DNA of 49,114 bases from Defluviicoccus sp. (GTDB lineage: Bacteria; Pseudomonadota; Alphaproteobacteria; MPNO01), in NCBI GenBank assembly GCA_028820505.1, contig JAPPIT010000110.1, forward strand, positions 1 through 49,114, written 5' to 3'. The notes under the pieces are model-generated. The model was not told the origin of the DNA, ran no database searches, and saw nothing but the letters and a program-made list of their open reading frames with translations. Positions within the stretch are counted from its first letter, which is position 1. Each line of letters starts with the position of its first letter. Position numbers and translations under genes: made by a program. Of this stretch, positions 40,236-49,030 are shown piece by piece.

Positions 40236-40574
40236 TCAGCCGCTCAGAGAGGCCTGCGCTTCGTCCCTGGTGTCGTGTATCGGAAGGAGCTTGTCGAAGC
40301 CGCTGATCTTGAAGACTTCCCGAATCGGATCGGAGAGAGCGCAGAGCACCAGCTTGGCGTCCTGGCTTTGAAGCGACTTCGCGGTCAGCAGGACGACGCG
40401 CAGACCGGCGCTGCTGATATATTCGAGCTGTCCGAAATCCATGATCACCGCGCGATCGGTTTCGGCGACGGCGTTCCGAACCGCCTCCTCGAACGCGACG
40501 GCGGTGGATCCATCGACCCGTCCCTTGACCTTCACGGACAGGACGTTCTCGTCTCTATGGCTGTTCACATCCAT
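40236..40574 (-). CDS. STAS-domain anti-sigma factor antagonist (RsbV/SpoIIAA-like)
   Basis: 112-residue single STAS domain. The phosphorylatable serine is in EYISSAGLRVVLL, the hallmark of anti-anti-sigma proteins that bind an RsbW-type kinase when unphosphorylated. It lies 73 bp downstream of the ammonium transporter gene on the same strand. It could be the substrate of the SpoIIE phosphatase and RsbW-like kinase encoded at the right end of the window (inference). Confidence 0.9.
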   Translation of the reverse strand: MDVNSHRDENVLSVKVKGRVDGSTAVAFEEAVRNAVAETDRAVIMDFGQLEYISSAGLRVVLLTAKSLQSQDAKLVLCALSDPIREVFKISGFDKLLPIHDTRDEAQASLSG

Positions 40575-40647: not shown

Positions 40648-42108
40648 TCAGTCGTCCATATCCGGGACGACGACGAATTCCGGATAGGCCTCGATACCCA
40701 ATTCCGCGACGTCCTGTCCCAACTCCTCGGTTATCGGCGTGACGCGGGCGCCGATGGTCGAATCGATCGCCCACCATACCACCCAGGAGGCAACGAACAC
40801 GAACGCGCCGATCGCCAGGATGCCGACGATCTGCACGCCCAGATCGCCGCCGGCGGCGATGCAAACCGCGATCGTGCCCCAGATCCCGGCGAACAGGTGC
40901 GCCGGAACCGCCCCGACCACGTCGTCGATCTTGAGCATGTCGAGCAGCCTGATCCCGAGGACGACGACGCCACCGCCGACCGCGCCGATCACCACCGCCC
41001 AGTAGTGGTCGACGATGTCGGGCCCGGCGGTGATCGCCACCAGCCCGCCGATCGCGCCGTTGAGGCTGGCCAGAAGGTCGACGCGCCCCAGCACCGGCCG
41101 GGACAGCGCCATCGCGGCGATCACGCCGGCGGCCGCGGCCAGGTTGGTGTTGGCGAGGATGTTGCTGATCGCCACCGCGTCGGCCGCGCCGCCGAGCGCC
41201 AGCTGCGAACCGCCGTTGAAGCCGAACCAGCCGAGCCAGAGAATGAACACGCCGAGCGTGACCGCGGGCACGTTGGACGGCGGGGTGGACTTGACGGTGC
41301 CGTCCTGGCGGAACTTGCCCTTCCGGGCGCCGACGACGAGCGCGCCGGCGAGCGCCGCCCAACCGCCGGTCGAATGCACGATGGTCGAGCCGGCGAAGTC
41401 CTGGAAGCCCATCGCCGAGAGCCAGCCGCCGCCCCAAGTCCACGATCCGATGACCGGGTAGATGATCGCCGTCAGCACCGTGATGAAGAGGAGGAAGGAC
41501 CACAGCTTCACCCGTTCGGCGAGCGTGCCCGATACGATCGAGGCGGTGGTGGCCACGAAAACCATCTGGAAGAACCAGTCGGACATCGTGGAATAGCCGT
41601 TCTTGACCACCGCGGCACCCGCCTTGGCGGCGTCGTCGCCGCCGGCGACCAGCGCCATCTCGTCGCCAGTGGTGCCGTAGAACAGGGTCAGCGTGCCGAA
41701 CCAGCCGCCTTCGGGAACCCCGACATACATGATGTTGTAGCCGACGAGGTAGAACATCAGCCCCGCTATCGAATACAGGCCGATATTCTTGAGGCAGATC
41801 ACGGACGCGTTCTTGGTGCGGACGGAACCCGATTCCAGCATCGTGAAACCGGCGCACATCCACATCACCAGCGCGCCCCAAATCAGAAAGGAGAAACTGT
41901 TCAGGACGAACTGCGTCTCTTCGGCGACGGCGGCGAGAGCCCGGTCCGGAAGGAGCAGCAGCAAGCCGCAAATCGCAACCGCCGCGGCGGCCGGCACCCC
42001 GCTTCCGCGCCGTCCGCGCGCCCGCCCGCCGAATCGGTCCGGCAGGGAACGGGCCGAAGCCCGGCTCATCCGCCGGCCGTTCTCAATCCGTTTTGCGCTA
42101 TCCGACAC
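40648..42108 (-). CDS. amt: Ammonium transporter (Amt family)
   Basis: 486-residue membrane channel for ammonium. Family motifs are GALVMWMCAGFTMLESGSVRTKN, DFAGSTIVHSTGGWAALAGA (first pore His) and VGAVPAHLFAGIWGTIAV (second pore His). An Arg-rich N-terminus (about 35 residues) precedes a signal-like hydrophobic segment ending ALAAV. No glnK (P-II) gene is adjacent, which is unusual; instead a STAS gene follows. The upstream gap 42109-42477 carries the inverted-repeat element. Confidence 0.94.
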   Translation of the reverse strand: MSDSAKRIENGRRMSRASARSLPDRFGGRARGRRGSGVPAAAAVAICGLLLLLPDRALAAVAEETQFVLNSFSFLIWGALVMWMCAGFTMLESGSVRTKNASVICLKNIGLYSIAGLMFYLVGYNIMYVGVPEGGWFGTLTLFYGTTGDEMALVAGGDDAAKAGAAVVKNGYSTMSDWFFQMVFVATTASIVSGTLAERVKLWSFLLFITVLTAIIYPVIGSWTWGGGWLSAMGFQDFAGSTIVHSTGGWAALAGALVVGARKGKFRQDGTVKSTPPSNVPAVTLGVFILWLGWFGFNGGSQLALGGAADAVAISNILANTNLAAAAGVIAAMALSRPVLGRVDLLASLNGAIGGLVAITAGPDIVDHYWAVVIGAVGGGVVVLGIRLLDMLKIDDVVGAVPAHLFAGIWGTIAVCIAAGGDLGVQIVGILAIGAFVFVASWVVWWAIDSTIGARVTPITEELGQDVAELGIEAYPEFVVVPDMDD

Positions 42109-42477: not shown

Positions 42478-43383
42478 TTACCGCGCCCAGATGGAAATGT
42501 CCGCGAGATAGTCGCGCGTCGACCGATCGAGCGGATAGAAGAGCGCCCCTTCACGGCCGAACCAGCGACTGTAGATTTGTTCGTACCGCCCCTTGAACTC
42601 CCGGATCTCGGCGAACATGCCGATCAAGGTCCGGTTGACCAGATCCCGCCAACGGCTGTCGTTCTGCGGCAGGACGCAGGCGAGACTTTCGGTCGCCAGC
42701 GGACGGGTCCTGGGCAAGAGCACGACGCTGCGCCGGGGCTCGCTTCGCTCGGCCAGTCCCAACAGCACGACGCCTACATTGGCGACGCCGTCGACCTCGC
42801 CCTTCTCCAGGCCGCGTATCGCTTCGCCCATGTTGGGATAGTCGCGGAGGCTCGCGGCCGGCAGGCGGTCCTGGAGGACGGCCACGGTGGTGGTGTTCTT
42901 GACGACGCCGATCTTCAGACGCCCGACATCGACCACCGCACCGACCTTCCCGCGGTACACCATCACGCGCGTGCCGTCGCGGAAGAAGGGGAGGGAAAAA
43001 TCCACCAGCGCTTCCCGATCCCATGTCGGCGTGGTGATGCCGCACACGATATCCAGCTCGCCCTTGGCGACCCGTTGCAGACGATCGCTGGGCGTCACTT
43101 CGGAGAGCTCGACCCTGACGGAACGGTTCAGCGCATTTTCGGTGGCGGTGCGGATTTCCCGAAGCAAATCGACGGAAAACCCCTTGAATTCCCCGGACGC
43201 CATTTTCTGGGCAAAGGGAGCCGCGTTGGCCCTCGTGCCAGCACGAATCACCCCGTCCCGGGTGATCCGGTCCAAAACGCTCTGCGCGGCGACAGGTCCG
43301 GAACCGCCACCCGCCAGAACGGCGCCCGCCACAGCGGCCGCCGCCGGTATCGCGCTCAGCCGCATCGCGTTCCGCAGCTTCAA
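42478..43383 (-). CDS. Amino-acid-type ABC substrate-binding protein (SBP_bac_3)
   Basis: 301-residue binding protein with a signal peptide (about residues 1-33, ending PVAAQ). The fold's segments are visible: RAGTRANAAPFAQK, FKGFSVDLLREI, LDIVCGITTPTWDR and IGVVKNTTTVAVL. The start is TTG at 43383, supported by GGGAGGGG six bases upstream; the first in-frame ATG is 18 bases later with no ribosome site. It faces away from the methyltransferase/receptor operon and could present ligand to that receptor or to an importer encoded elsewhere. Confidence 0.88.
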   Translation of the reverse strand: MKLRNAMRLSAIPAAAAVAGAVLAGGGSGPVAAQSVLDRITRDGVIRAGTRANAAPFAQKMASGEFKGFSVDLLREIRTATENALNRSVRVELSEVTPSDRLQRVAKGELDIVCGITTPTWDREALVDFSLPFFRDGTRVMVYRGKVGAVVDVGRLKIGVVKNTTTVAVLQDRLPAASLRDYPNMGEAIRGLEKGEVDGVANVGVVLLGLAERSEPRRSVVLLPRTRPLATESLACVLPQNDSRWRDLVNRTLIGMFAEIREFKGRYEQIYSRWFGREGALFYPLDRSTRDYLADISIWAR

Positions 43384-43676: not shown

Positions 43677-44435
43677 ATGTCCAACAGCTACGATACCTAT
43701 ATTTCATCGGGGCTCTACGACCGACGTTACCCGGCTCCGAACAGGCGCACGCTTCGAAGAATCCTCGGCTTGATGCCCGCCGAGGGGCGCTTTATGGATT
43801 TCGGCGCAGGCACCGGGCGCTATACATTGCCATTGCTGGAAAACACCGGAGCCACCGGCGTGGCCTACGATGTCTGTCCGACGGCGTGTCGCATGCTGAC
43901 CGAGCGCTTGCGGCGTTTCATCGGCAACGGTCGGCTGGATGTCAGGAACGGGGACCTGAACGAAATGGTCGCTGGATTTCGACGCGGGTTCGACCTCGCG
44001 CTTCTGGCATTCGGGGTTGTCGCGCACGTGGCGGGTCGGAGGGAGCGCGTGAAACTGCTCGGTTCGATTCGCGAAATGCTCAAGCCGGAAGGCGCCCTGG
44101 TGCTCAGCCTGCCCAACGCCAGACGCCGGTTCCATGCGGAACAGCGCGCGGCGGCCCCGCTGGTGCGGGACGGCGCCCTCGAGCCGGGCGACGTTCTTTA
44201 CGTGCGCAGATCCGACGCTGGAAGCATCGAGATGTATTACCATCTCTTCTCGCCGGCCGAGGCCCGGACGGAGTTGTCGAACGCCGGATTCAGCATCGCG
44301 AGCATGGAGCCCGAGAGCTTCCTCCCGGAGACCGCGGTCGTTACGAATTCGCTGCTGGGCCGTCTGGACGATCTGGCCTGCGAGGCCGTGCCCGCGGCCA
44401 GCGGATACGGTTTTCTCATCGTGGCCCGACCGTGA
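43677..44435 (+). CDS. SAM-dependent methyltransferase (class I)
   Basis: 252-residue methyltransferase. Motif I is FMDFGAGTGRYTLPLL, the acidic residue after beta-2 lies in VAYDVCPTACRML, the motif IV region is FDLALLAFGVVAHVAG, and VLSLPNARRRFHAEQ follows. The substrate is unknown. I use ATG 43677 because the in-frame upstream sequence (to 43536) is not conserved in character; no strong ribosome site is seen. Its TGA overlaps the GTG start of the binding-protein/permease fusion, which places it in that operon. The 293-bp gap before it should hold divergent promoters. Confidence 0.82.
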   Translation: MSNSYDTYISSGLYDRRYPAPNRRTLRRILGLMPAEGRFMDFGAGTGRYTLPLLENTGATGVAYDVCPTACRMLTERLRRFIGNGRLDVRNGDLNEMVAGFRRGFDLALLAFGVVAHVAGRRERVKLLGSIREMLKPEGALVLSLPNARRRFHAEQRAAAPLVRDGALEPGDVLYVRRSDAGSIEMYYHLFSPAEARTELSNAGFSIASMEPESFLPETAVVTNSLLGRLDDLACEAVPAASGYGFLIVARP

Positions 44436-46060
44436 ACGGCGTGCGTTTGTCGAATTCGGCCGGCGGGCGCGGTCGCACATCCCGGGCCGGCCTTCTGTTC
44501 CTGGCGGCCGCCTGTTGGCTGGCGGGCGCGATACCGGCAACCGCCGACCGGCTGGACGAGATCCGCGCACGGGGCCACCTGATCGTCGGCGTGAAGGGGG
44601 ACTACCGCCCGTTCGGCGTGCGCGACGAGACCGGCAACCTGGTGGGCTACGACGTCGACGTGGCGCACGGTCTGGCGGAAGCGGTGGGCGTGCCGGCCCG
44701 GTTGACCCCGGTGACCAGCGCGAACCGGCTGCAGAAGCTCGCGCGCGGCGAGATCGACGTGGTGGTCGCGACGCTGGGCGACAATCTCAGCCGCCGTCGG
44801 CTGGTCACCATGATCGAGCCACAATATTACGGCGATGGCGCCAATGTCCTGCTGCGGACCGATTCCGGTATTACGACCTGGGAGGGCTTGCGCGGCCGGA
44901 CGCTTTGCAGCGTGCAGGGTTCGCTGTGGAACCGTCTGGCCAGCGAACGTCTGCTGGTCGAGACGATCTCCCTCAACTCGACGCGCGAAGCCGCCCTCGC
45001 GTTGCGCAACGGCCACTGCGTGGGATGGTTGTACGACGAAGTCAATCTGCTGAGCGCCATAGCCGGCGGAGGTTGGGACGGCTTCGCCGTGAGCCTGCCC
45101 ACTCGCTTTGTCCTTCCATGGGCGATCGCCATCCGCAAGGAAGAAACGGGAGGGCGCCTCGACCGACTGCTGGGCGACAAGGTCGCGTCCTGGCACCGCG
45201 ACGGCTTTCTCCAGGAGATCGAGAAGAAGTGGAAATTGCCGCCGTCGCCCTATCTTCGACGCGCCCGCGAGGTCTGGCAGCAGAAGGATGAGGCGGGCAA
45301 TTTCGTGTGCCGCCGTGACGAGGCCGGCAACTGGCCGCTCGAATGCCGCGAACGCGCGCTCGTGACCAGCCAGGAATTCGGCGGCCTTGCGGCGATATCG
45401 ATGGCGTTCAAGGAATCGACCGGGCTCGACCTCAGCCCGGTTTACGACCCCCTCGATCGAAATACGTTCCTCTACGGCCTGTTTCTGACGATCGCGCTCT
45501 CGGTCTCGACCGTCGCGGGGAGCGTCGTTTTCGGAGCGTTGTTCGGGTGGGTGATGCACCGGCGGATCGCGGTGGCAGCCCCGTTCCTGCACGCCTTTTG
45601 CGCCGTGCTGCGAATGACGCCCCCGTTGTTGCAGCTCTATGTCGTCTTCTTCGGCATCGGAGGAATCCTGTTCGCGTACGGGTTTACGCTTGACGCGTTT
45701 TCGCTCGCGGCCGTGGTGCTGTCGCTCTACGCCGCGTCCAGCAACGCGGTGTCGTTCTCGCTGGCGGCCGACGTGGCGGCCCGGGACGGCGGTACGCTCG
45801 GTTTCTCTGTCGACGAATTTCGCCGGGCGTTCGACCTGTGCCAGGCCGCGATCGCGGGCAATTCGATCAACATCGTCAAGGCGACGGGCATGGCGAGCAC
45901 GTTGGCCCTGCCCGAACTGGTGCATGCCAGCACGGCGATCATCGCGGAAAAGGGCAATGACGGTGTGATGATGAACCTGCTGCTGCTTTGTTATTTCGCT
46001 CTGGTGTTCGTCACCATCTGGCTGCTGCGCGGCTGGGAGCGCAGGGCGCAACACTCGTAA
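44432..46060 (+). CDS. Fusion of SBP_bac_3 binding domain and HisM-type ABC permease
   Basis: 542 residues. A signal peptide or anchor (about 18-38) is followed by an amino-acid-binding SBP_bac_3 domain (about 40-270; VGVKGDYRPFGVRDETGNLVGYDVDVA, RGEIDVVVATLGD), a linker with a Cys pair (293, 305), and an amino-acid ABC permease domain (about 345-535; RMTPPLLQLYVVFFG, IVKATGMASTLALPELVHAS). The usual EAA loop is altered: the EAARALGLS position reads RDGGTLGFS, and the following Leu-Pro is lost. The GTG start overlaps the methyltransferase stop (GTGA). It ends two bases before the permease-phosphatase gene. With no ATPase gene nearby it may sense rather than transport. Confidence 0.88.
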   Translation: MNGVRLSNSAGGRGRTSRAGLLFLAAACWLAGAIPATADRLDEIRARGHLIVGVKGDYRPFGVRDETGNLVGYDVDVAHGLAEAVGVPARLTPVTSANRLQKLARGEIDVVVATLGDNLSRRRLVTMIEPQYYGDGANVLLRTDSGITTWEGLRGRTLCSVQGSLWNRLASERLLVETISLNSTREAALALRNGHCVGWLYDEVNLLSAIAGGGWDGFAVSLPTRFVLPWAIAIRKEETGGRLDRLLGDKVASWHRDGFLQEIEKKWKLPPSPYLRRAREVWQQKDEAGNFVCRRDEAGNWPLECRERALVTSQEFGGLAAISMAFKESTGLDLSPVYDPLDRNTFLYGLFLTIALSVSTVAGSVVFGALFGWVMHRRIAVAAPFLHAFCAVLRMTPPLLQLYVVFFGIGGILFAYGFTLDAFSLAAVVLSLYAASSNAVSFSLAADVAARDGGTLGFSVDEFRRAFDLCQAAIAGNSINIVKATGMASTLALPELVHASTAIIAEKGNDGVMMNLLLLCYFALVFVTIWLLRGWERRAQHS

Positions 46061-46062
46061 CG

Positions 46063-48630
46063 ATGCCCGATGTCGTCGACATTCTGATCACCTGGACGCC
46101 CTATCTGGCGCTGGGGTTCGGCTGGAACATACTGGTCTCGCTGGTCGCGATGGCGATCGGCACGGCGATCGGCGTCGGGCTCGCCGCGATGCGCGGCGGC
46201 AGGGCAAGGCGGGTGAGCCGGGGAGGCAACGCGCTGACGGTGCTCGCCGCCAGCGCGCCGACCTTCGTCATGCTGTTCTACCTCGCCTACATGGTGCCCG
46301 CGAGCTTCCAGCTTTTCGGCGTCGTGGTGCCGATCCCGGTTTGGCTGAAGGCATCGCTCGCGCTTTCGATCGCGGTCGCGGGGTTCGTATCCGACAATGC
46401 GCTCGCCGCGCTGCGGCATCTCAGGCGCGGGCAGATCGCCGAGGCGATGCTGTTCCTGCCGTCCTGGACCAATTACTTCCTGATCATCGTCATGGCGTCG
46501 GCGACCGCGTCGGTCATCGGCGTGCCCGAAATGGTCTTTCGGGTGGACACCGTAATCGCGGCGCTGGGCCAGCCGCAGCTTTCGTTCTGGATCTACCTCT
46601 ACGCGATGGCCTGGTTCCTCGCGTTTGCGGGCATCGTGACGCTGGTGATGCGGATGGCGCACGTGACCCGCGGCGACACCAGCGTGAGCCTGTCGCGGCA
46701 TCTTATCCTGATCGTCACCGCATCGGTCGGCGTCGCGATCGTGGGCGTAGCGATAGCCCTGGGCCTGCTGGCGCGCAATGCGCTGATAGATCAGGCGGAG
46801 AGCCAGGCTCGGCTCGTTGCGGGCCTTATTGCGAGCGAAGCCAACCGGGTGGGCGTGGTCTCCGCGGAAATCGACCGGGTCGTCACATCGGAAAACGAAG
46901 CGCAGGCGATCGCGCTGGCCCACATCGCCGACATCATGGCCGATGACAGCCGGGCGCTGGCGATCGAACTCGCGGAAATTACGGCGGACAGCATTGTCGA
47001 CGACGTTTGGGTGCTGGACGAAAAGGGGATTCCGTCGGCGCGGGCGATCGGCGGCCGCGGCCACGCGGTCGACGGTATGGCGGTCGACGAAATCGACGGC
47101 CCGGTGCTGCGCACCCTGATCTCGGGGCGCCGCTATTCCATTTCCTTCCGATCCGTACCGAAGGACGGGTTGGAAGTGCCGATGCGGTATATCGGCGTAC
47201 GCAGCCGGCAGGGACGGTTTGTCCTGGTAGGCAGCCATGCCGACAAGACCTCGAGCCTCGACGCGACGATCGGACTTGCGGCGGCGCTGGACTCGCTGGC
47301 GGCACAACCGGCGGTCCAGGCTATCTGGGTCGTCGACGACTCATTGAAGGTCACCGCTGCGGTGGCCGCGAACCTGCCCCGGGGTGCGGAGCCGCCGGAA
47401 TTCGGATCGGCCGACAGGTCGCTTGCGAGCCGGGCCGTCAGAGGCGTCGCTCAGTCTTTCCTGAGCGACAACGCGTTGCACGTCGCGGCGCCCATCCTGG
47501 ACCGGGGCGGCGTCGCCACGGGTGTCGCCGTTCTTCACATGCCGCGCGATCGTCTCGACCGGCTTCTCGAGGACTACGTGGCGTTCGGACTGGCGGCGGC
47601 GCTGGCCGCCTTCCTGATCGGCGCGGTGACCGCGACCTTGTCAGCGCGCCGCATCACGCGGCCGGTCGCCGCGTTGACCCAAGCGGCGGTGGAGATGGAC
47701 AGGGGCAATTTCACGCCGGAGGCGCTCGATCACTTCGGGAACCGCCGCGACGAGCTCGGCCGGCTGATCAACACGTTCCAGACGATGGCGCGCGAAGTCC
47801 AGGCACGCCGGGAGCATTTGGAAGCGCTGGTTGCCGAGCGCACGCTGGATCTCGAGCAAAAGAACGTGTTGCTCGACGAGGCGAACCGCCGGATGGAGGA
47901 CGAGCTCGCGGTGGCCCATTCGCTGCAGCACGCGATCCTGCCCAAGACCCTGCCGCCGGACACCGCGTATTCCGGAGACGCGGTGATGACGCCGGCGCGC
48001 GAGATGGCGGGCGACTTCTACGACTACTTCACGCTCCCCGACGGCCGCCTCGGCCTGGTGATCGCCGATGTCTCGGGCAAGGGGGTAGCCGCGGCGTTCT
48101 TCATGGCCATCACGAGAACCGTGATGCGGGCCACGGCCCAGGAGATCGGAGACGCCGGCTCCTGCATGCGTTTGGTCAACGACAGGATCTCTTCGGAAAA
48201 CCCGCACGACCTGTTCGTGACGCTCTTCTACGGCATCCTGGATCCGTCGACGGGTCGGCTTACATACGCCAACGCCGGGCACAACGCGCCGTTTCTCATC
48301 CGGAACAGCGGCGATGTGGAAACGGTGCCATTGACCGGCGGGGTCGCGGTCGGCGTCCTGCCGGAACTGGATTACGATGAGAAGAGCGTTGATCTCGAAG
48401 TCGGGGATACGCTGTTCCTCTATACCGACGGTATTTCGGAGGCGATGAACCTCCGCGGCGAGACGTTCGACGAGCACCGCCTCGAAAGCGTCCTGTCGAT
48501 CGGCCCAGGAGCGCCGGTAGACACCGTGATCGGCAATGTAACCCTGGCGGTCGGCGAATTCGTCGGCGAAGCCGAGCAGTCCGACGACATTACCTGCCTC
48601 GTGCTTCGCTACAACGGCAAGGGCGCCTGA
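46063..48630 (+). CDS. Fusion of ABC permease, extracytoplasmic sensor, HAMP and SpoIIE-type PP2C phosphatase
   Basis: 855 residues. An HisM-type permease-like domain (about 1-200, five hydrophobic segments, ending SVIGVPEMVFR at 150-160) is followed by a membrane segment (213-237), a Cache-like extracytoplasmic region (240-505), a membrane segment (507-527), HAMP (528-580, SARRITRPVAAL), a coiled coil (580-625) and a SpoIIE/RsbU phosphatase. Metal-binding acidic motifs are intact: GDFYDYF (Asp651), DVSGKG (Asp669), YTDGISEA (Asp789) and DDITCL (841-842). Between RRGQ and ASVIGVPE about 20 residues usual in the family are missing, which is the ATPase-docking EAA loop. It should dephosphorylate a STAS protein on an external cue relayed from the upstream fusion protein. 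Confidence 0.9.
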   Translation: MPDVVDILITWTPYLALGFGWNILVSLVAMAIGTAIGVGLAAMRGGRARRVSRGGNALTVLAASAPTFVMLFYLAYMVPASFQLFGVVVPIPVWLKASLALSIAVAGFVSDNALAALRHLRRGQIAEAMLFLPSWTNYFLIIVMASATASVIGVPEMVFRVDTVIAALGQPQLSFWIYLYAMAWFLAFAGIVTLVMRMAHVTRGDTSVSLSRHLILIVTASVGVAIVGVAIALGLLARNALIDQAESQARLVAGLIASEANRVGVVSAEIDRVVTSENEAQAIALAHIADIMADDSRALAIELAEITADSIVDDVWVLDEKGIPSARAIGGRGHAVDGMAVDEIDGPVLRTLISGRRYSISFRSVPKDGLEVPMRYIGVRSRQGRFVLVGSHADKTSSLDATIGLAAALDSLAAQPAVQAIWVVDDSLKVTAAVAANLPRGAEPPEFGSADRSLASRAVRGVAQSFLSDNALHVAAPILDRGGVATGVAVLHMPRDRLDRLLEDYVAFGLAAALAAFLIGAVTATLSARRITRPVAALTQAAVEMDRGNFTPEALDHFGNRRDELGRLINTFQTMAREVQARREHLEALVAERTLDLEQKNVLLDEANRRMEDELAVAHSLQHAILPKTLPPDTAYSGDAVMTPAREMAGDFYDYFTLPDGRLGLVIADVSGKGVAAAFFMAITRTVMRATAQEIGDAGSCMRLVNDRISSENPHDLFVTLFYGILDPSTGRLTYANAGHNAPFLIRNSGDVETVPLTGGVAVGVLPELDYDEKSVDLEVGDTLFLYTDGISEAMNLRGETFDEHRLESVLSIGPGAPVDTVIGNVTLAVGEFVGEAEQSDDITCLVLRYNGKGA

Positions 48631-48646: not shown

Positions 48647-49030
48647 CTACCCCGCCGCCCCGCCGTGCCGCGTCTCCCTGGTGAGGGTCACGATGTTGCG
48701 CCCGCCGCTGCGCCGATAGCGAAAACTGTCCATCAGTTCCCGGACGAAGTGAACCCCGAGCCCGCCGATCGGCCGTCTCTCGATCGGCGCGTCGATATCG
48801 GGGTGGGGCGCGGCGGTCGGATCGTAGGGCTTGGCGTCGTCCGAGAGCTCGACCACGAGCACGCTGCCTTCCATCCGAACGGTCATCTCGATCCGGTGCC
48901 CGTCGGAATCGTCATAGCCGTAGCTGATCGTGTTGGTGAGCAACTCGTCGATCGACACGTTGACGGCGAAGGCGATCTCGGGCGCCACGCCGTGCTCGGC
49001 GCAGAAGGCTTTGACATGTTCCGCCGCCAC
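48647..49030 (-). CDS. RsbW-like anti-sigma factor / serine kinase (HATPase_c_2)
   Basis: At least 127 residues with the GHKL ATPase motifs of anti-sigma kinases: N box NVSIDELLTNTISYGYDD, G1 VVELSDDAKPYDP, G2 RPIGGLGVHFVRELMDSFRY. GTG 49030 is used, but the coding pattern continues upstream in frame (TRLSLKNDLGELA, the usual first strand and helix) for 24 codons to a TGA at 49103-49105, with no ATG, GTG or TTG. Either a rare start such as CTG is used or a frameshift is present. It is convergent with the phosphatase gene and is probably its antagonist in a partner-switching module. Confidence 0.85.
   Translation of the reverse strand: MAAEHVKAFCAEHGVAPEIAFAVNVSIDELLTNTISYGYDDSDGHRIEMTVRMEGSVLVVELSDDAKPYDPTAAPHPDIDAPIERRPIGGLGVHFVRELMDSFRYRRSGGRNIVTLTRETRHGGAAG

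Follow-up and report, generated by a model that had tools for sequence, protein, structure and literature searches.

A putative receptor derived from a type I ABC amino-acid importer and linked to a SpoIIE phosphatase switch in Defluviicoccus

Two adjacent genes of Defluviicoccus sp. appear, with a probability that we put at about three in four, to encode a receptor built from a type I ABC amino-acid importer and signalling through a phosphatase switch. They lie in contig JAPPIT010000110.1, of which 49,114 nt were analysed (this whole stretch is called the window here; the contig stops at its end). A transporter-derived receptor that controls a partner switch is well supported by the evidence given below. 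An earlier note on this DNA had proposed that a whole permease pair is reused as an ATPase-less receptor and, as far as sequence comparison can tell, this proposal stands, as both EAA loops are deleted throughout the clade and present in the ATPase-bearing relatives. A fuller account, which we consider somewhat more probable than its negation, holds that the permease of a type I importer, made of two subunits, was converted once, together with its tethered SBP, to an ATPase-free receptor, that direct helix contacts drive a SpoIIE/STAS/RsbW switch, and that living intermediates keep the ATPase. The use of a type I ABC importer as a receptor would be new, as no precedent was found in the literature searched, while transporter-derived receptors and partner switches are already known.

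The two-gene locus and its domains

ORF1 (44432-46060, forward strand, 542 aa) consists of a signal peptide, an SBP_bac_3 domain (aa ~40-275; Pfam, E 4e-23), a linker and a HisM-like permease half 1 (aa ~334-540) whose coupling-helix loop is about 10 aa shorter. Its GTG start overlaps by 4 bp with the stop of an upstream gene for a small SAM methyltransferase (43704-44435, forward strand). ORF2 (46063-48630, forward strand, 855 aa) has its ATG start 2 bp past ORF1, the arrangement first described for these two genes. The assignment of one HisM-like permease half to each protein, made at the same time, is borne out by profile matches for both: TIGR01726 HEQRo_perm_3TM matches ORF1 (E 1e-8, aa 345-436) and ORF2 (E 5e-5, aa 13-111), in each case under the NCBI curated cut-off (NCBIfam). 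Half 1 aligns with ordinary HisM-type permeases at 99.9% in hhalign (profile-profile comparison, E 5.5e-37), and on this comparison its homology to them across the permease core is regarded as certain. Half 2 matches the profile of the Art(QN)2 permease 4yms_D (E 3e-7), and by score each of the two corresponds to one half of an operon with two permeases.

The SBP of ORF1 is similar to proteins that bind amino acids (arginine-binding 6svf, E 8e-21), and the ORF1 structure model, of moderate quality (pTM 0.56), matched the fold of a glutamate-bound SBP in a PDB search (Z 26.9). Searches with the whole-ORF models gave matches that covered only this SBP and, in ORF2, the PP2C domain. In a residue mapping done by eye, Arg121, which aligns with the carboxylate-binding arginine, is invariant in 20 sequences, and Asp202, which aligns with the amino-group-binding aspartate, is kept in 17 of the 20, being replaced by alanine in three loci of family f224 (L100, L119 and L120). 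Given the conservation of these two residues, an amino-acid-like ligand is likely. The linker between SBP and half 1 carries two cysteines (C293 and C305), invariant in 20/20 fused relatives aligned, which possibly form a periplasmic disulphide loop.

ORF2 starts with the HisM-like permease half 2 (aa 1-200; 46063-46662, forward strand, as for all parts of this gene), whose coupling-helix loop is about 20 aa shorter. The stretch that follows (46663-47544) holds a short basic linker, a TM segment (~aa 210-240) and a periplasmic alpha/beta region; the linker, roughly ten residues between the last permease helix and the first phosphatase TM, is probably cytoplasmic. A second TM (~aa 495-529), a HAMP domain (aa 527-580; Pfam, E 6e-10) and a coiled-coil linker come next (47545-47937), and the C-terminal part (aa ~626-855; 47938-48630) is a SpoIIE/PP2C phosphatase domain (Pfam, E 2e-50). 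The earlier note had read the same order of permease, TM, TM, HAMP and SpoIIE, all of which is retained; its label "Cache-like" for the periplasmic part is left without Pfam confirmation, as that part matches no named family there. The model of ORF2 (low-to-moderate confidence, pTM 0.37) has two alpha/beta blocks in this region, compatible with a double-Cache domain. The periplasmic region occurs in all SpoIIE-linked versions and, since the phosphatase thus has a periplasmic region of its own, it probably integrates two inputs.

From its domain and its metal-ligand Asp motifs, ORF2 is predicted to be a SpoIIE/RsbU-type PP2C phosphatase. The motifs GDFYD, ADVSGKG, YTDG and QSDDITC are invariant in 9 phosphatase sequences, and the fold of the PP2C domain is closest to those of Rv1364c RsbU (3ke6, Z 28.2) and SiaA (6k4e, Z 27.5). 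Coiled-coil linkers, HAMP-linked ones included, dimerise and activate RsbU-type PP2C phosphatases (PMC12143880), and SiaA, which has a HAMP domain, works in a partner switch (PMC7647112).

The genes around the pair include further candidates for such a switch. An RsbW-like HATPase_c_2 kinase is encoded at 48647-49030 (reverse strand), and a STAS anti-sigma-factor-antagonist-like protein with an ISSAGLR motif, the likely substrate of the phosphatase, at 40236-40574 (reverse strand). Phosphatase, HATPase kinase and STAS protein are encoded together in the window, as they are in several relatives. An Amt ammonium transporter gene (40648-42108, reverse strand) adjoins the STAS gene and is conserved in only part of the receptor loci; in one relative, a GPP34 (Golgi phosphoprotein 3-like) gene (L090:2439-3128) lies amid the HATPase, STAS and Amt genes. 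A second, divergent orphan SBP_bac_3 protein, GrrP-like, is encoded at 42478-43383 (reverse strand); its gene is a conserved neighbour of the SpoIIE-linked receptor and transitional loci, no dedicated permease was noticed, and the protein is possibly a second ligand-binding subunit. Conserved counterparts of the methyltransferase gene, as at L093:13501-14328 and L099:8328-9128, accompany most receptor loci and the transitional loci, two phosphatase-less loci of family f224 among them.

Coupling helices and the ATPase

In type I importers, each permease half carries a cytoplasmic EAA loop, the coupling helix that touches the ATPase. If the pair is a receptor without an ATPase, these helices should therefore be dispensable, and this expectation was set as a test. 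In a MAFFT alignment and in the sequences themselves, the EAA loops are absent from both halves in every receptor-type locus read. Counted between conserved anchors where these could be matched, the loop of half 1 measures 39-40 aa in receptor loci (32 in L092) and 49 aa in ATPase-bearing relatives, and that of half 2 measures 31 aa against 51 aa; the other receptor loci were judged by the gap in the alignment or sequence. The Pfam family BPD_transp_1 (PF00528) matches neither the ORF1 nor the ORF2 permease half, and it does match half 2 of a transitional locus (E 5e-17).

The nearest ordinary importers retain both EAA loops and have an adjacent ATPase in all cases but one, L105. Because this locus bears EAA loops and yet has no ATPase beside it, a missing neighbour proves little by itself. 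Nevertheless, no GlnQ-type ATPase gene adjoins any EAA-less locus in the neighbourhoods read, and the ABC ATPases that L017 and L134 have at a distance of 4-6 kb were dismissed as partners, being PotA-like and ModC. A search of the window genome gave only two GlnQ-type ATPases (265 and 226 bits, with the next score at 146), both of which adjoin EAA-bearing permeases of their own, so that within this search a cognate ATPase for ORF1/ORF2 was found neither adjacent nor free in the genome. Hence ORF1/ORF2 lack both features by which a functional ABC importer is recognised, a cognate ATPase and an EAA motif in both halves. The earlier observation that no ABC ATPase flanks the pair holds, and the conservation of the pair without a neighbouring GlnQ-type ATPase gene, a check of the kind proposed at that time, is seen at every EAA-less locus read. 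Homologous loci with a HisP/GlnQ-type ATPase, named as evidence that would tell against the receptor, turned out to be only ordinary importers and an EAA-intact sister group.

Relatives, fusions and an apparent intermediate

HMM searches covered 385 class-level and 398 phylum-level genomes, to which selected orders, one family and a second class were added; they brought up further fused SBP-permease genes and also the nearest ordinary importers. At least 17 further genomes have the SBP-permease pair, and purifying selection acts on its permease domains (dN/dS 0.07-0.17). This recurrence and this selection argue that the pair is not due to chance, and the same dN/dS values argue against the permease domains being decaying remains. 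One locus labelled Anaerolineae (L016) was rejected as a sign of spread at the phylum level; it is close to the alphaproteobacterial L017 and matches a contig of genome G917, and is a probable mis-binned contig.

Three congeners of the window organism have the same fused pair. In most relatives the system consists of three genes with half 2 and phosphatase unfused, as in L016, L017 and G003:C182, where separate genes encode half 2 (224-246 aa) and a phosphatase of about 650 aa; the permease-phosphatase fusion is a derived, late event. One congener has two copies of the system, G003:C161 and G003:C182 (L007, L010, L011), one fused and the other in separate genes. In genus g53, an RsbW-like HATPase_c_2 kinase takes the place of the phosphatase in an in-frame fusion with half 2 (L092:10706-11860; L133:8192-9346, reverse strand; and L134). 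Half 2 has thus been fused independently to both enzymes of the switch, which is hard to explain unless the permease belongs to the signalling complex.

Not all EAA-less pairs come with this switch. Family f224 has the pair without an ORF2-like phosphatase in the two genomes searched, and its loci L100, L119 and L120, near which no SpoIIE gene was found, lie beside the type VI secretion sheath genes VipA/VipB. Because of these loci, the receptor may serve other outputs too, and the SpoIIE phosphatase is not the only possible partner of the EAA-less pair.

The nearest ordinary importers have a separate gene for each of SBP, half 1, half 2 and ATPase. Genomes G260, G341, G160 and G908, all of one genus, have a fused SBP-half 1 gene and a half 2 gene with EAA loops intact, and in addition a GlnQ-like ATPase and SpoIIE, STAS, HATPase and methyltransferase genes; in G160, the genes for ATPase and phosphatase are on the same contig at a distance of roughly 10-14 kb. 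Where read, the transitional ATPase has an intact Walker A motif and the signature LSAGQ; it may be slow in hydrolysing ATP or have a regulatory role. Genes with this altered signature are found at L093:12782-13504 and L094:7694-8740 (both reverse strand).

In a tree of 30 loci based on SBP, half 1 and half 2 (642 columns), the EAA-less loci are monophyletic (UFBoot 100), with the EAA-intact genus as sister to all of them; nested within the EAA-less clade, the permease-phosphatase fusions make up a single clade (UFBoot 100). The EAA-intact, ATPase-bearing sister group looks like an intermediate. The simplest history leads from an importer to an importer with a phosphatase module, then through one joint loss of the ATPase and both coupling helices, and at last to late fusions.

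Signal path, alternatives and known systems

We infer the ligand class, the lack of transport, the path of the signal and its final target. The periplasmic SBP, tethered to half 1, would bind an amino-acid-like solute and dock on the dimer of halves 1 and 2. Since both coupling helices are deleted, the dimer could not engage an ATPase, and its rearrangement would thus be read by the TM helices of the SpoIIE phosphatase, joined to half 2 by the short basic linker here and encoded by a separate neighbouring gene in most relatives. A signal passed in this way through the permease dimer would reach the HAMP domain, which together with the coiled-coil linker would set the activity of the phosphatase dimer; the phosphatase would in turn alter the phosphorylation of the STAS protein and hence its binding to the RsbW-like kinase, as in partner switching. 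The phosphatase could, however, with its own periplasmic region, function without the permeases.

One alternative is that the pair is still an importer that borrows an ATPase encoded elsewhere, the phosphatase reporting on transport flux in the manner of transporter-coupled signalling. The sister genus does combine coupling-helix permeases, an ATPase and the phosphatase module, and L105 illustrates that ATPase genes can be apart from their permeases, but the deletion of both ATPase-contact loops across the whole clade and the fact that the two GlnQ-type ATPases of the genome adjoin EAA-bearing permeases of their own make this very unlikely. We also give little credence to an EAA-less dimer that acts as an ATP-independent channel or facilitator for passive passage of a solute, with a separate ligand for the phosphatase. 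The strong conservation of TM core motifs (RMTPPLLQLY and others) could mean that a path is preserved; dimer packing would account for it too, and the occurrence of half 2 in fusions with two different enzymes of a partner switch points to coupling rather than to mere co-location.

The permease might also be a mere membrane scaffold or anchor for the SBP, which would then contact the periplasmic region of the phosphatase directly. That this region is periplasmic and found in all SpoIIE-linked versions fits the idea, and direct activation of sensor kinases by ligand-loaded SBPs is a described route (PMC11113362). A scaffold, however, needs no two complete permease halves conserved by selection, and the kinase to which half 2 is fused in g53 is cytoplasmic and has no periplasmic domain, so we hold such an anchor to be improbable.

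The proposed receptor shares with the type I ABC amino-acid importers (HisQM/GlnP/Art(QN)2, 4YMS-4YMW; GlnPQ with fused SBP) an SBP_bac_3 domain and two HisM-type halves, with homology over the whole permease, and differs from them in the deletion of both coupling helices, the lack of a cognate ATPase and the linked phosphatase switch. With SiaABC and RsbU-RsbW-RsbV it has in common a HAMP-PP2C membrane phosphatase, a STAS protein and a HATPase kinase, but in the present system the phosphatase or the kinase has an additional SBP-permease pair or is fused with one. ABC transporter/kinase pairs of the BceAB-BceS type keep a working ATPase, unlike the system described here. In the GlnH-GlnX-PknG pathway, GlnX is not known to be an ABC permease and a kinase is the output; in both respects the pathway differs from our system. 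The common ground is an SBP_bac_3 amino-acid receptor acting through a membrane protein on a Ser/Thr phosphorylation pathway (PMC9769921). The BceAB-BceS and other such pairs, which PMC11109136 names, resemble our system in that ABC transporter subunits work together with a signalling enzyme in the membrane. Related to what we propose are also the transceptors, in which a transporter membrane domain serves as sensor for a fused signalling enzyme, namely 5TMR/S-component kinases, some of them fused to SpoIIE (PMC11109136), and the Amt-histidine kinase (PMC5764959).

Such transporter-derived receptors use single-chain transporters or ECF S-components, whereas the present case would involve the permease of a type I importer, made of two subunits, along with its SBP. 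Neither an ABC permease-SpoIIE nor a permease-RsbW case, nor any other conversion of an ordinary SBP-dependent ABC importer into a receptor, was found in the literature searched, outside which most subscription journals lie; within that literature the earlier statement that a permease pair as receptor is undescribed holds. We contend that the conversion can be traced step by step: a full importer comes first, then an importer that has both the ATPase and the phosphatase module, and last the receptor that lacks the ATPase and shows fusions. How a pump turns into a sensor can thereby be tested through exchanges of loops and subunits between close relatives, and the importer-derived receptor would represent a new type of input for Ser/Thr partner-switch signalling in Proteobacteria.
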